Assembly (NCBI RefSeq): GCF_900129195.1
Contig: NZ_FQUY01000002.1
Coordinates: forward strand, 1 to 64,000
DNA from: Desulforamulus putei DSM 12395
GTDB lineage: Bacteria > Bacillota > Desulfotomaculia > Desulfotomaculales > Desulfotomaculaceae
Length of the DNA: 64,000 nucleotides
Reading direction: 5' to 3'
Part shown: piece after piece, positions 1,313 to 39,454 of the stretch
How positions within the stretch are numbered: position 1 is the stretch's first letter
Layout: every line of letters begins with the position of its first letter
Translations under genes and position numbers: made by a program
Notes under the pieces: model-generated
Seen by the model: the letters and a program-made list of their open reading frames with translations, nothing else
Told to the model about the DNA's origin: nothing
Database searches by the model: none

Positions 1313-2698
1313 TCAGGATAAACTAACATCCGCTCCCAATACGCCGATGACCTCCTTGCCCCGGTAAACAGGCACCGACACCGTCAGGCATGGTTGCCGC
1401 GTAATGGCCGATATATAGACAGGTGATATAAATGTTTCACCCTTCATGGCCCTTTGCCACCATTCCCTGACTTTGGCGTTGGCGAGACCGGCGGCCGGTT
1501 CGGAGAAGAGAAAAACACCTTCTGTATCATTGGACCAAATGGCTTCAATATCGGGGTTGTCCCCTTTTAACCGGGAAAGTACACTCTTATGCCGGGCCGG
1601 ATCCAGACTGATGATGTGATGTTGGCCGGCTGTTTGAGTGAGCTGGGATTTAATGTGTTCGATGCGGGAAACCGCTTCCTGCTGAATGACGTAGGTTAAT
1701 TGACTGCCCGAGGCGGCCTTTTCCAGGTCATCGGCCAGGTTGGCCATGAGTTTTCCCGTATTAACCACCGATTCCAGATCACGTTTTCTTAATTCCAAGA
1801 CGGACGCCACCTGCTGCAGGCTGCTGTTAATCTCACACAATGTTTCCCGGGCGGTGTTGTTTACTTTGTAGATAAAATCAAAACTACGGGTAAAAACCTT
1901 TTGAACGTTATTTAACTGGTCAGCGGCGGTTTGGGAAGAATCCATGCTTTCGGTGATACTGCCAACTACGGTTGCCACATCTTGTTTGATTTGTTCTAAA
2001 ACATCGGAAGTTTGTTTAACTGCACCGGCCGTCAGATCGGACAACTTTCCTATTTCCTCCGCTACCACACCGAATCCCCGGCCATGCTCGCCGGCCCTGG
2101 CAGCCTCAATGGCGGCATTTAAAGCCAGCAGTTTGGTCTGGCCGGATATTTCACCGATGTTTTGGGAGATCAATCTCACTTGTTCCACTGCTTCCTTTAA
2201 TGTGCTAATCTGATGATTCAGCCGGTTATTGCTGCTTGTAATACCGCCAATGGCTTTATTTACTGACTCGATGGCATTGATGCTTTCTTGCACCGCCTTT
2301 TCGCTGGCCAGGAAGTCCTTTTCCAAAACATCACCGGTGGTTTGCACAGTGGCGGCGATGTCCTGTATTTGCATAAAGGCAGAAGAAATATCTGAAGCGG
2401 AGCGAACCGAAACATCCAATTGACTGGAGGCGGCCCGTACCTGCTGGGATGTCAATTGAATTTCCTGGGCCAGGTGTCTTACTTTACCGGTCAAACCGCA
2501 AACTGCATTACTTAACCGGGAGAATTCCTTTGTATTGTCAATCCGGCAGACGGGAGGCAGTTCCATCCGATGCCAGTGGGCGGTTTCCTCTTCGATCCTG
2601 GTAATTATGGTGGCATAGCGTTTTTTCAGCCGGTGGAAAGCAGCGGCGCCACCGATGGATGCCAAGGCAAAACCACAAACAAATTCATAAACTGCCAT
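1313..2698 (-). CDS. Methyl-accepting chemotaxis protein with C-terminal Cache-like domain
   Basis: Chemoreceptor of 461 residues. One N-terminal hydrophobic segment (about 2-22) is followed by a short linker and a long coiled-coil signalling domain with the conserved hairpin tip ([22 protein letters not shown], split here as [14 protein letters not shown] then AGEHGRGF). After it, about residues 370-461 resemble a PDC/Cache-type sensor: [34 protein letters not shown]. The sensor therefore sits after the signalling domain and, with only one membrane segment, probably in the cytoplasm. The start was moved to the ATG at 2698 because GGGGGTG lies just upstream; six more codons are open. The leader carries a two-hairpin ANTAR target and an overlapping hairpin (2720-2781), linking the receptor to the nitrogen regulon. 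Its ligand is unknown; an amino acid or other nitrogen compound is only an inference. Confidence 0.85.
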
Positions 2699-2719
2699 GT
2701 TTTCACCCCCAAACAATAA

Positions 2720-2781
2720 GCGCCCATCTCCCGAAGGAGACAGGCGCCAGTGCCTTAGCTTAAACGATACGTCATTGTATC
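2720..2781 (-). promoter_or_regulatory. ANTAR target leader (P1, P2 and terminator-like hairpin) of the chemoreceptor gene
   Basis: Read on the minus strand. P1 at 2781-2766 is GATAC-AATGAC-GTATC. P2 at 2754-2743 is GGC-ACTGGC-GCC, 11 bases later. Both loops have six bases with A at 1 and G at 4, the ANTAR recognition pattern. P2 shares bases with a 12-pair hairpin (2747-2720) capped by a UUCG loop and followed by TTATTGTTT, so P2 and that hairpin exclude each other. Two of the 12 pairs are G-U on the minus-strand RNA but mismatches on the other strand, which supports function in the chemoreceptor transcript. The U-tract is weaker than in the glnA leader, and the hairpin sits close to the ribosome site, so control of translation is an alternative. 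Confidence 0.7.
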
Positions 2782-2854
2782 AAAGATAATAATACCATAG
2801 TCTAACCATGGTGGAAGAGTTTGGGGAGAAAAATACATAATACTTCAAGAACGC

Positions 2855-4737: not shown

Positions 4738-4794
4738 AAAATAAACGCCACCCGTTAAAGAGAAGAACATCTTTAACCAAGTGGCGCCATTGCC
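4738..4794 (-). promoter_or_regulatory. ANTAR-type attenuator upstream of asnB
   Basis: On the minus strand, P2 at 4794-4783 is GGC-AATGGC-GCC, with a six-base loop having A at 1 and G at 4. Its 3' side overlaps a strong intrinsic terminator: stems 4786-4781/4751-4746 and 4777-4770/4761-4754, then a T-rich run (4745-4738). A first hairpin (P1) with a canonical loop was not found. The nearest candidate, around 4815-4800, is GTCAC/GTAAC with loop CGGAGT and does not fit the rule. About 40 bases separate the terminator from the asnB start. Confidence 0.75.
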
Positions 4795-4836
4795 CTGGTG
4801 TTACACTCCGGTGACGGTTTTCATTTGTCTTACTTC

Positions 4837-8780: not shown

Positions 8781-8848
8781 AGGATACAATGATGTATCCT
8801 ATCACGGCAATGTTGCCCAGACAGGTAGTGTACCTGTCTGGGTTTTTT
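8781..8848 (+). promoter_or_regulatory. Canonical ANTAR dual-hairpin attenuator before the second ANTAR gene
   Basis: P1 (8781-8800) is AGGATAC-AATGAT-GTATCCT. P2 (8806-8817) is GGC-AATGTT-GCC, five bases later. Both hexaloops have A at 1 and G at 4. The terminator (8816-8842) is a perfect 11-pair stem around a five-base loop followed by six T. Its first bases are the 3' side of P2, so the two structures cannot coexist. This is the clearest copy in the window and implies autoregulation by the product or by the first ANTAR protein. Confidence 0.9.
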
Positions 8849-8868: not shown

Positions 8869-9453
8869 GTGGCCAATCCACGTATCGTCATCGTCGATGC
8901 GGATGAGGCGTGGTGCAAGCATTTAAAGACCATGTTAGGTAAACTGGGCTATCTTGTTGTGGGAGATGCCTCAGACGGCCCCGGCGCGCTGAAGTTGGTG
9001 CGTACCCGCCACCCGGATTTGCTGATCATCCAGGATCATTTGCCTGGCCTCAGCGGTCTGGAGGTAGCCCGTATTATGTATGAAGATCAACTAGGGCCGG
9101 TCATCATAACCACCGATTACATGCAGCAGGACTTAATTGAGAAGGCACGGGAAGCTAGGGTATTCAGCATTCTCCTGAAGCCGGTGGAAGAACATGCTTT
9201 GCTGCCTGCGGTGGAACTGGCCATGGGTAATTATCAAGAAATCATTAAATTGGAAAAGCAGGTCAAAGAATTGAGAGATACCCTGGAAACCAGGAAACTG
9301 GTGGAAAAGGCCAAGGGCATCTTGATGAGGACCATGAAACTAAGCGAAGAAGAAGCCTATAAACGCATCCAAAAGCAAAGCATGAACAAGCGCATTTCTA
9401 TGCGGGCGGTGGCCGAGGCGGTCATACTTGCTCACAATATTAACCAAGACTAA
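8869..9453 (+). CDS. ANTAR-domain antiterminator with degenerate receiver (second copy)
   Basis: 194-residue paralogue of the protein encoded at 4996. The receiver begins ANPRIVIVDADE. At the phospho-acceptor site it reads LLIIQDHLPG, so Gln takes the Asp position with an Asp one residue later; the conserved Lys is in LLKPVEE. A coiled coil and the ANTAR domain follow (LETRKLVEKAKGILMRTMKL, then SEEEAYKRI). The start is GTG 8869, preceded by AGGTGA; the frame is open back to 8770, but that part is the leader with its terminator. The gene sits behind its own ANTAR attenuator and 142 bases before an intact glnA with another. It probably binds those RNAs when glutamine is low. What releases it is unknown, since no kinase or NasS-like sensor is nearby. 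Confidence 0.9.
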   Translation: MANPRIVIVDADEAWCKHLKTMLGKLGYLVVGDASDGPGALKLVRTRHPDLLIIQDHLPGLSGLEVARIMYEDQLGPVIITTDYMQQDLIEKAREARVFSILLKPVEEHALLPAVELAMGNYQEIIKLEKQVKELRDTLETRKLVEKAKGILMRTMKLSEEEAYKRIQKQSMNKRISMRAVAEAVILAHNINQD

Positions 9454-9474: not shown

Positions 9475-9560
9475 AACCGGTACAATGATGTCCGTTCAGG
9501 CAATGGCGCCTTTTATGAGGGGGTTTTCTATTCCTTTTTTATAAAAGGCGTTTTTATTTT
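9475..9560 (+). promoter_or_regulatory. ANTAR dual-hairpin attenuator before the first intact glnA
   Basis: P1 (9475-9496) has the loop AATGAT closed by AC/GT and, past single-base bulges, GGC/CCG and AA/TT. P2 (9499-9510) is GGC-AATGGC-GCC. Both loops obey A1/G4. The terminator stem CGCCTTTTAT (9507-9516) pairs with 9541-9550 across a 24-base loop and is followed by TTTTTATTTT. It shares the 3' bases of P2. No promoter was recognised in the gap, so this may control readthrough from the ANTAR gene into glnA. Confidence 0.85.
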
Positions 9561-11088: not shown

Positions 11089-11168
11089 AAGCACAATGGC
11101 GTGCTTACTTATTGGGCGACGAGGCCTGCAGCGGGTAAGATTTTTGGTACCTTGCGTGTAGGTTTTTT
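11089..11168 (+). promoter_or_regulatory. ANTAR-type attenuator with variant P2 before the second intact glnA
   Basis: P1 (11089-11106) is AAGCAC-AATGGC-GTGCTT, a perfect A1/G4 hexaloop hairpin. P2 (11114-11127) is GGGC-GACGAG-GCCT: six-base loop, G at 4, but G instead of A at 1. The terminator starts at 11125 inside P2, with CCTGCA pairing to TGTAGG and inner GGTA/TACC, then seven T. The stem is less regular than in the other leaders. Confidence 0.7.
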
Positions 11169-24652: not shown

Positions 24653-24672
24653 ATTTACTTTTACCCTCCTTT

Positions 24673-24812
24673 GGCCTTCGAGGTTAGTTGACGGGTTCGG
24701 GTTGAAGGGTACCCCTACCGCACCTTTTGACACCCCCAAAAAGGTTGGCGGATTCACCCCAAAATAAAATTGGTCCCCCGTACTCCGGTGCCACCGGAGA
24801 TTCGGCCTTTTT
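24673..24812 (-). ncRNA. c-di-AMP riboswitch (ydaO-yuaA) upstream of the SleB gene
   Basis: Read on the minus strand it contains the conserved blocks in order: GGCCGAATCTCCGG, GGGGGACC, TTGGGGTGAATCC, GTAGGGGTACCC, GAACCCGTCAACTAACCTCG and a closing AGGCC. These match the ydaO consensus, including the near-invariant CCCGTCA-CTAACCTCG core. High c-di-AMP would lower expression. The ribosome site begins a few bases after the aptamer, so control may act on translation or on an unseen terminator. Confidence 0.92.
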
Positions 24813-24955
24813 TGATAGACTTATGCAATATTGTACAAGGTTTTCACTAATTCGTCCATTCATAAATTCTGGAAAAAAATGCGAGACATAGTATGTTATT
24901 TGGAGGAAATACTATTTTTGTGCTGCAAAAGAAAAATAACCGGGGAGTGAACAAG

Positions 24956-31039: not shown

Positions 31040-31233
31040 TGAAGGTTCTCCTTTATGTGAACGGTACAAAGTTATAAGTCAAGCATCAAAAATTATTGCC
31101 AAAAACAGGATAAATTATGAGCAGAAAATCAAATGGGCTTTTGTCTCAAATTGCCTTGTAATTGCGAAGAAAATCTCTTTTTGAGCAGGAAAATGGAAAC
31201 TTTCGGCGAATTTGGTAATAGGCTAAAATAAAA

Positions 31234-31340
31234 ACGCCTAATTTCCAAATGAAAACGGGGGAACCGTTCTTTTGGGGTGAACTACCATTGGTAGCGGGCT
31301 AACTTTCGGTCCGAACCCGTCAGCTAACTCCGTAGGCGTA
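31234..31340 (+). ncRNA. c-di-AMP riboswitch (ydaO-yuaA) upstream of the NlpC/P60 gene
   Basis: Conserved blocks in order: ACGCCTAATTTCC, ACGGGGGAACC, TTTTGGGGTGAA, TAGCGGGCTAAC, CCGAACCCGTCAGCTAACTCC and GTAGGCG closing P1 with CGCCTA (the core is cut here as CCGAACCCGTCA then GCTAACTCC). It lies directly before the ribosome site of the hydrolase gene. Confidence 0.93.
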
Positions 31341-31359
31341 GAAAGTGGGGAAGGTGAAG

Positions 31360-38890: not shown

Positions 38891-38961
38891 TGACAGGTCA
38901 AAAAAGACATGAGTATGCCTCTGGTAACTGCTTGCCTCTCCTCGGGAGGTGATCAGTTAAG

Positions 38962-39120
38962 CGTCAGGCAGGTCTCCTGACTGAGGCGTAAGCGCTAGTT
39001 TCGACCTTCCCGGTATCACCAGTGGTGTAAATGAAACTAACTAGCCATCACAGTGGCCGGACCGTTCGGGATTTGCACCCGATTCCCTTTTAAACCCCCC
39101 TGGCAAGGGGTACCTGACAC
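38962..39120 (-). ncRNA. Cobalamin riboswitch controlling cbiK-cbiM-cbiN
   Basis: On the minus strand: a P1 strand GTCAGG, then GGGAATCGGGTGCAAATCCC, the near-invariant CGGTCCGGCCACTGTGA block, and GTCAGGAGACCTGCCTGAC closing the aptamer. Matches the B12-box consensus with one change (CCGGCC for CCCGCC). Terminator at 38861. Confidence 0.95.
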
Positions 39121-39212
39121 TTCCAAATATATGTAGTTCTTATGCCATAATACCATTTAACAGGTATAATGTCTATACAAAATCCTATTGAGCATGAATA
39201 TGTTAAGTGATA

Positions 39213-39241: not shown

Positions 39242-39261
39242 ATTTTTTATCATAAAATCTT

Positions 39262-39424
39262 CTTACAGGTGCCCCCCGGGGAGAATAGGGAATCGGGTGC
39301 AAGTCCCGAGCGGTCCCGCCACTGTAAACGGTGAGCCGATACCAATTCTAAGCCACTGGCCGGCAGGTTGGGAAGGCAGGTATTAAGGCAGTGACCCGTA
39401 AGCCAGGAGACCTGCCTGTAGGAA
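39262..39424 (+). ncRNA. Cobalamin riboswitch controlling cobT
   Basis: Conserved blocks: TTACAGGTGCC, GGGAATCGGGTGCAAGTCCC, GCGGTCCCGCCACTGTAA, GCCACTGG, and GTAAGCCAGGAGACCTGCC with TGTAGG closing P1. A textbook match. A terminator follows at 39455. Confidence 0.97.
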
Positions 39425-39454
39425 GTTTTATTATCTGAGGATGATGGTAAAGTT

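Follow-up and report, generated by a model that had tools for sequence, protein, structure and literature searches.

A chemoreceptor gene located next to nitrogen assimilation genes in Desulforamulus putei DSM 12395 is preceded by RNA hairpins that resemble binding sites of ANTAR proteins, raising the question of whether a component of the motility apparatus belongs to a nitrogen regulon. Nitrogen metabolism genes are known targets of ANTAR control; if such control extends to a chemotaxis receptor, it would join motility to nitrogen status. We analysed the window (the whole stretch of 64,000 nucleotides at the start of contig NZ_FQUY01000002.1) together with orthologous receptor loci. Our main reading, to which we assign a probability of roughly 0.8 from sequence comparisons, is that an ANTAR-responsive transcription attenuator controls the receptor gene and would switch the receptor on together with the nitrogen genes.

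Anatomy of the receptor leader

The receptor gene and its leader comprise the following elements:

1313..2698, minus strand: receptor (MCP) gene, ATG at 2698; membrane anchor, MCP signalling domain and C-terminal dCache_1 half
2710-2704, minus strand: GGGGGTG, receptor ribosome site, outside P1, P2 and the terminator
2709..2718, minus strand: T-rich terminator tract, TATTGTTTGG, only moderate in quality
2719..2748, minus strand: intrinsic terminator hairpin, 13 bp, UUCG loop, 3' arm of P2 in common
2742..2755, minus strand: ANTAR hairpin P2, AGGC[ACTGGC]GCCT, stem of 4 bp, with covariation support
2766..2781, minus strand: ANTAR hairpin P1, GATAC[AATGAC]GTATC, stem of 5-6 bp, with covariation support
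2789..2797, minus strand: extended -10 promoter element, TGGTATTAT, 7 nt upstream of P1, without a good -35

Read along the minus strand from 2797 to 2696, the order is TGGTATTAT, 7 nt, P1, a linker of about 11 nt, P2, the UUCG hairpin, TATTGTTT, GGGGGTG and the receptor ATG. Thus, two hexaloop hairpins followed by an overlapping terminator occupy positions 2781-2719. The original prediction described canonical P1 and P2 hairpins with the loops AATGAC and ACTGGC, and both are present on this strand; each has a hexaloop, with A as its first and G as its fourth base, closed by a stem of at least 3 bp. The prediction also holds for the overlap of P2 with a UUCG-capped hairpin: the 13-bp stem at 2748-2719 uses the 3' arm of P2 and ends 20 nt upstream of the receptor ATG. 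This hairpin was further said to pair fully only in the sense RNA owing to two G-U pairs, and indeed, these two adjacent pairs become a 2x2 mismatch on the opposite strand, where the folding energy is -17.4 kcal/mol compared with -23.8 kcal/mol for the sense strand. Together with the compensatory stem changes described below and the presence of ANTAR proteins in the genome, the A1/G4 loops and the P2-terminator overlap are the features expected of an ANTAR target RNA. The combination of P1 and P2 has a folding energy of -10.3 kcal/mol versus -28.0 kcal/mol for P1 and the terminator, so the terminator should win unless P2 is held, as an attenuator requires.

A sigma-70 pattern scan found no full promoter before P1 in the window; an element of the form TGnTATTAT occurs at the same distance from P1 in two orthologue leaders (L005 and L006), and in five orthologue leaders, a perfect TTGACA-17/18-TATAAT promoter is located 17-22 nt upstream of P1.

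The leader folds with a z score of -3.9, and only 1 of 200 shuffled sequences folds as well or better. The receptor leader yielded no Rfam match at the gathering thresholds. A search for tandem hairpins without a terminator returned 3 matches in the window, where 2.75 would be expected by chance; on their own, tandem hairpins would therefore carry little conviction, and the case rests on terminator overlap and conservation. A fixed rule demanding P1, P2 and an overlapping terminator was passed by 35 of 2700 shuffled upstream regions (1.3%) and by 30 of the 308 gene-upstream regions in the loci fetched. These 30 regions precede nifH, amtB, glnA, ANTAR genes, a nifV-like gene and the receptor, with few unrelated genes among them.

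Conservation of the leader among orthologous receptors

We drew receptor orthologues from 28 genomes, including that of the window. Orthologues without the two hairpins would have spoken against the original prediction, but P1, P2 and the terminator are all present in 16 receptor leaders, that of the window included (12 under the strict rule and 4 near-canonical), spanning ten genera and six families of the order, and the stems covary. P1 stems occur as GATAC/GTATC, AATAC/GTATT, TTATC/GATAT, GTATC/GATAC and TCATC/GATGT, and P2 stems as GGC/GCC, AGC/GCT and GAC/GTC. In the covariation alignment, 94.5% of cells are paired and 26 are double-changed, a score reached by none of 500 shuffles and far above that of the slid controls, in which sliding the stem partners abolishes pairing. 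The stems for this alignment were chosen by eye and the linkers omitted, which favours pairing; this choice does not account for the double changes in two helices across families or for the rule-based matches.

Some leaders retain the element only in part. Five (L020-L023 and L025) keep P2 and the terminator without a clear P1, which fits later work showing that one hexaloop is the minimal ANTAR site (PMC8934654), and four orthologue leaders (L007, L015, L027 and L028) lack a recognisable element. The covariance model R1 misses four more (L024, L026, L030 and L031) because their stem sequences differ; three of these pass the structure rule, and the element of L026 is seen by eye only. A contig scan for further receptors mainly retrieved general MCPs through matches to the signalling tip. 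Among its results, L066 from Paenibacillus is closest; it adjoins an ammonium transporter gene and has no element by eye. Distant receptors of the phylum (L176-L192) are mostly without a convincing element among the matches listed; among these matches, L183 satisfies the rule, and P2 with a terminator can be seen by eye in L175, L178 and L179. At one further locus (L232, G019:C9:46365-46800), a deletion has left only the Cache end of the receptor gene behind an intact ANTAR leader.

In many genomes, the receptor has amtB, glnK, glnA, asnB or nif genes as neighbours, although the gene names in genomes other than that of the window were read from sequences and not all were checked against models:

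L050 and L051: asnB and an ANTAR gene beside the receptor
L052: glnA, amtB, glnK and an ANTAR gene beside the receptor
L055 and L059: amtB and glnK beside the receptor
L054: nifH beside the receptor
L065, L198 and L199: nif genes and a nifV-like gene beside the receptor

These contexts bear on the simplest alternative, namely, that the hairpin is no more than the usual terminator of asnB, the gene upstream, and that the small hairpins are accidental. The local geometry would allow it: asnB and the receptor share a strand, asnB ends at 2855, and the terminator hairpin falls between the two genes. The frequency of tandem hairpins without a terminator, which are not rare by chance, would allow it too. 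However, the block is kept where asnB is not adjacent (L052, L053, L055, L056 and L058), the P1 and P2 stems covary, and orthologues have their own promoter just upstream of P1. We rejected the asnB-terminator reading on the orthologue gene contexts and consider it very improbable. A different kind of alternative accepts the ANTAR site and has the protein act on translation instead of termination. Ramesh et al. 2012 provide a possible precedent, a single MCP whose ribosome site is covered by a candidate ANTAR site. Here, however, neither hairpin nor the terminator includes the ribosome site at 2710-2704, and P2 shares sequence with an intrinsic terminator in the manner of classical attenuators, which leaves translational control with an equally slim chance.

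The nitrogen regulon and its ANTAR proteins

We ran a covariance model built from 13 leaders, the receptor leader among its seed sequences, on the whole 3.1 Mb genome. Within the window, the elements and ANTAR genes are:

4745..4795 (approximate), minus strand: P2-like hairpin GGC-AATGGC-GCC overlapping a terminator in the asnB leader, seen by eye, without a clear P1
4996..5577, plus strand: ANTAR-domain response regulator no. 1, with Glu instead of the phosphoacceptor Asp
8783..8819, plus strand: ANTAR leader element of ANTAR gene no. 2, best match of the genome, in the seed
8869..9453, plus strand: ANTAR-domain response regulator no. 2, with Gln instead of the phosphoacceptor Asp; assumed GTG start at 8869
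9479..9512, plus strand: ANTAR leader element of glnA (9596), E 0.02, not in the seed
11090..11128, plus strand: ANTAR leader element of glnA (11224), in the seed

The receptor leader is the second-best match in the genome (37.7 bits), its own sequence being in the model seed. Elsewhere in the genome, matches outside the seed precede nifH (C29:77768, E 0.001) and amtB-glnK, the latter directly after the third ANTAR gene (C17:64147, E 0.001, and a weak match at C17:63982, E 0.8). The amtB-glnK leader (L048, G000:C17:63982-64250) carries several ANTAR-like hexaloop hairpins and terminators in series, apparently stacked attenuators. The window contains, in this order, asnB, ANTAR, glnA-like, glutamate-synthase-like, ANTAR, glnA, glnA, gltB-like and gltD-like, the last two named from sequence. 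Because of this gene set and the non-seed matches before nifH, amtB-glnK and glnA, the window is, as judged from its sequence, in the core of a nitrogen ANTAR regulon. Across 113 genomes of the order, the model has matches in 87 of the 99 genomes with ANTAR proteins versus 2 of the 14 without (Fisher p 4e-8, uncorrected for kinship). Beyond the ANTAR elements, the window contains two adjacent, divergent cobalamin riboswitches (38950-39132, minus strand, and 39250-39433, plus strand) and two c-di-AMP riboswitches (31225-31354, plus strand, and 24659-24817, minus strand).

The genome encodes three ANTAR proteins, all above the Pfam cut-off, two of them within 7 kb of the receptor leader. The third, on contig C17, retains the phosphoacceptor Asp of its receiver, whereas the position is occupied by Glu in no. 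1 and Gln in no. 2. EutV-type activation by phosphorylation thus cannot apply unchanged to these two regulators, and with Asp replaced in two of the three receivers, ANTAR activation may proceed without phosphorylation. No sensor kinase gene was seen adjoining the nearby ANTAR regulators. The receptor and ANTAR co-occur in 28 of 28 genomes, which is weak evidence given that 99 of the 113 genomes of the order carry ANTAR.

Altogether, conserved leaders, the ANTAR proteins of the genome and the elements before nifH, amtB-glnK, glnA and an ANTAR gene lend support to the central claim of the original prediction, an ANTAR switch before the chemoreceptor gene. Since similar leaders precede nifH, amtB-glnK, the glnA genes and an ANTAR gene, the receptor can be counted, on sequence and conservation, as a member of the nitrogen regulon, and its expression is probably tied to nitrogen supply. 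With the element in front of nifH, amtB and glnA, production of the receptor during a shortage of fixed nitrogen is the most likely direction of control. The scheme that we infer, from start site through ANTAR binding and antitermination to the nitrogen signal and its direction, the ligand and the effect on motility, would be as follows. Transcription would begin just upstream of P1, and by default, the 13-bp terminator would fold using the 3' arm of P2, ending transcription before the receptor gene. An active ANTAR response regulator, as a dimer, would bind the P1 hexaloop and then P2, keeping P2 folded; with P2 held, the terminator would be blocked and the receptor made. The receptor could then inform CheA of a cytoplasmic ligand, which may be an amino acid, and so bias swimming. 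The dual-hairpin antitermination mechanism on which this scheme is modelled is established for EutV (PMC3369931, PMC8934654).

The receptor and its relation to known systems

The encoded protein is an MCP by its signalling domain (PF00015, E 2e-25). It has a single N-terminal hydrophobic anchor and no second one, and the C-terminal dCache_1 half is therefore predicted to be cytoplasmic. The profile of the C-terminal domain matches amino-acid receptors such as PctA (E 2e-5), and five residues, R411, W413, W414, Y428 and D457, are invariant among 22 receptor sequences. The amino-acid dCache_1 motif was taken from PMC10104139, according to which a related Cache domain is rarely used inside the cell. 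We aligned the receptor with the PctA motif positions, which we take to be R126, W128, Y129, Y144, D173 and Y121. The five invariant residues align with the first five of these positions; the sixth, Y121 of PctA, corresponds to position 406 of the receptor, which is Ala in nearly all sequences. With no aromatic residue at this position, the receptor is a relative, not a member, of the amino-acid dCache_1AA sensors, and amino-acid sensing is a lead. An AlphaFold prediction from the single sequence was poor (mean pLDDT 45.9).

In known MCPs, the signalling tip binds CheA and CheW. The window genome encodes both, and the receptor probably drives chemotaxis. The main competitor to this reading keeps the ANTAR attenuator and makes the protein an MCP-like cytosolic nitrogen sensor with other partners, such as an EAL protein or the ANTAR regulators lacking Asp. 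Several observations are compatible with such a sensor: few parts of the protein are as well conserved as the C-terminal Cache end, which exceeds most of the signalling hairpin in this respect (22 sequences); EAL genes adjoin the receptor in several families; two ANTAR receivers lack Asp; and in G075, a 92%-complete assembly, the receptor is present with CheA and CheW undetected. Nonetheless, the CheA/CheW-binding tip is strongly conserved in the same 22 sequences and CheA is found in 26 of the 28 receptor-bearing genomes, and we regard the cytosolic sensor as unlikely, if far less so than the alternatives considered for the leader. The EAL neighbours are those of L054, L059, L062, L179, L183, L196 and L197, and one of them contains a YkuI_C domain; this suggests a link to c-di-GMP. 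At less than even odds, the ANTAR-controlled chemoreceptor could represent a family of receptors that is widespread among anaerobic Firmicutes and absent from the papers searched, in which an amino-acid Cache domain has moved to the cytoplasm and the protein is made under nitrogen starvation, such that the internal amino-acid pool would steer motility and, via the EAL neighbours, c-di-GMP.

The literature searched contained no paper on a conserved chemoreceptor under ANTAR control. A conserved receptor in the nitrogen regulon, if real, would mean that nitrogen shortage changes the signals read by the swimming machinery, via transcription elongation. Because the sensor keeps most of the amino-acid motif yet is predicted to face the cytoplasm, the locus also poses a testable receptor-ligand question. 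Compared with PctA-type amino-acid receptors, with which it shares the five motif residues and the profile match, the protein differs in having a partial dCache domain that is C-terminal and predicted to be cytoplasmic, with a non-aromatic residue at the Y121 position.

The ANTAR RNA class, its mechanism and the nitrogen regulons of Desulfotomaculum were described by Ramesh et al. 2012 (PMC3369931). The nitrogen regulons of D. acetoxidans and D. reducens in its Fig. 9 likewise include glutamate and glutamine synthases, an ammonium transporter, P-II and nitrogenase; the text considered here names no chemoreceptor in the Desulfotomaculum regulons, and the supplementary tables may list one. The eut, nas and ami targets of EutV, NasR and AmiR (PMC3369931, PMC8934654) have the same architecture as the receptor leader, that is, two A1/G4 hexaloops, short stems and linker, and P2-terminator overlap. 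Unlike in those systems, the target here is a chemoreceptor, no adjoining sensor kinase gene was seen, and the two nearby regulators lack the receiver Asp. The closest parallel is the MCP with a candidate ANTAR site in Fig. S3 of the same study (PMC3369931), also a methyl-accepting chemotaxis gene as a putative target. There, site and ribosome site overlap, and control at the level of translation was proposed, whereas the leader analysed here is a predicted transcription attenuator conserved across genera. What is new is thus a conserved chemoreceptor leader within an already known ANTAR RNA class.
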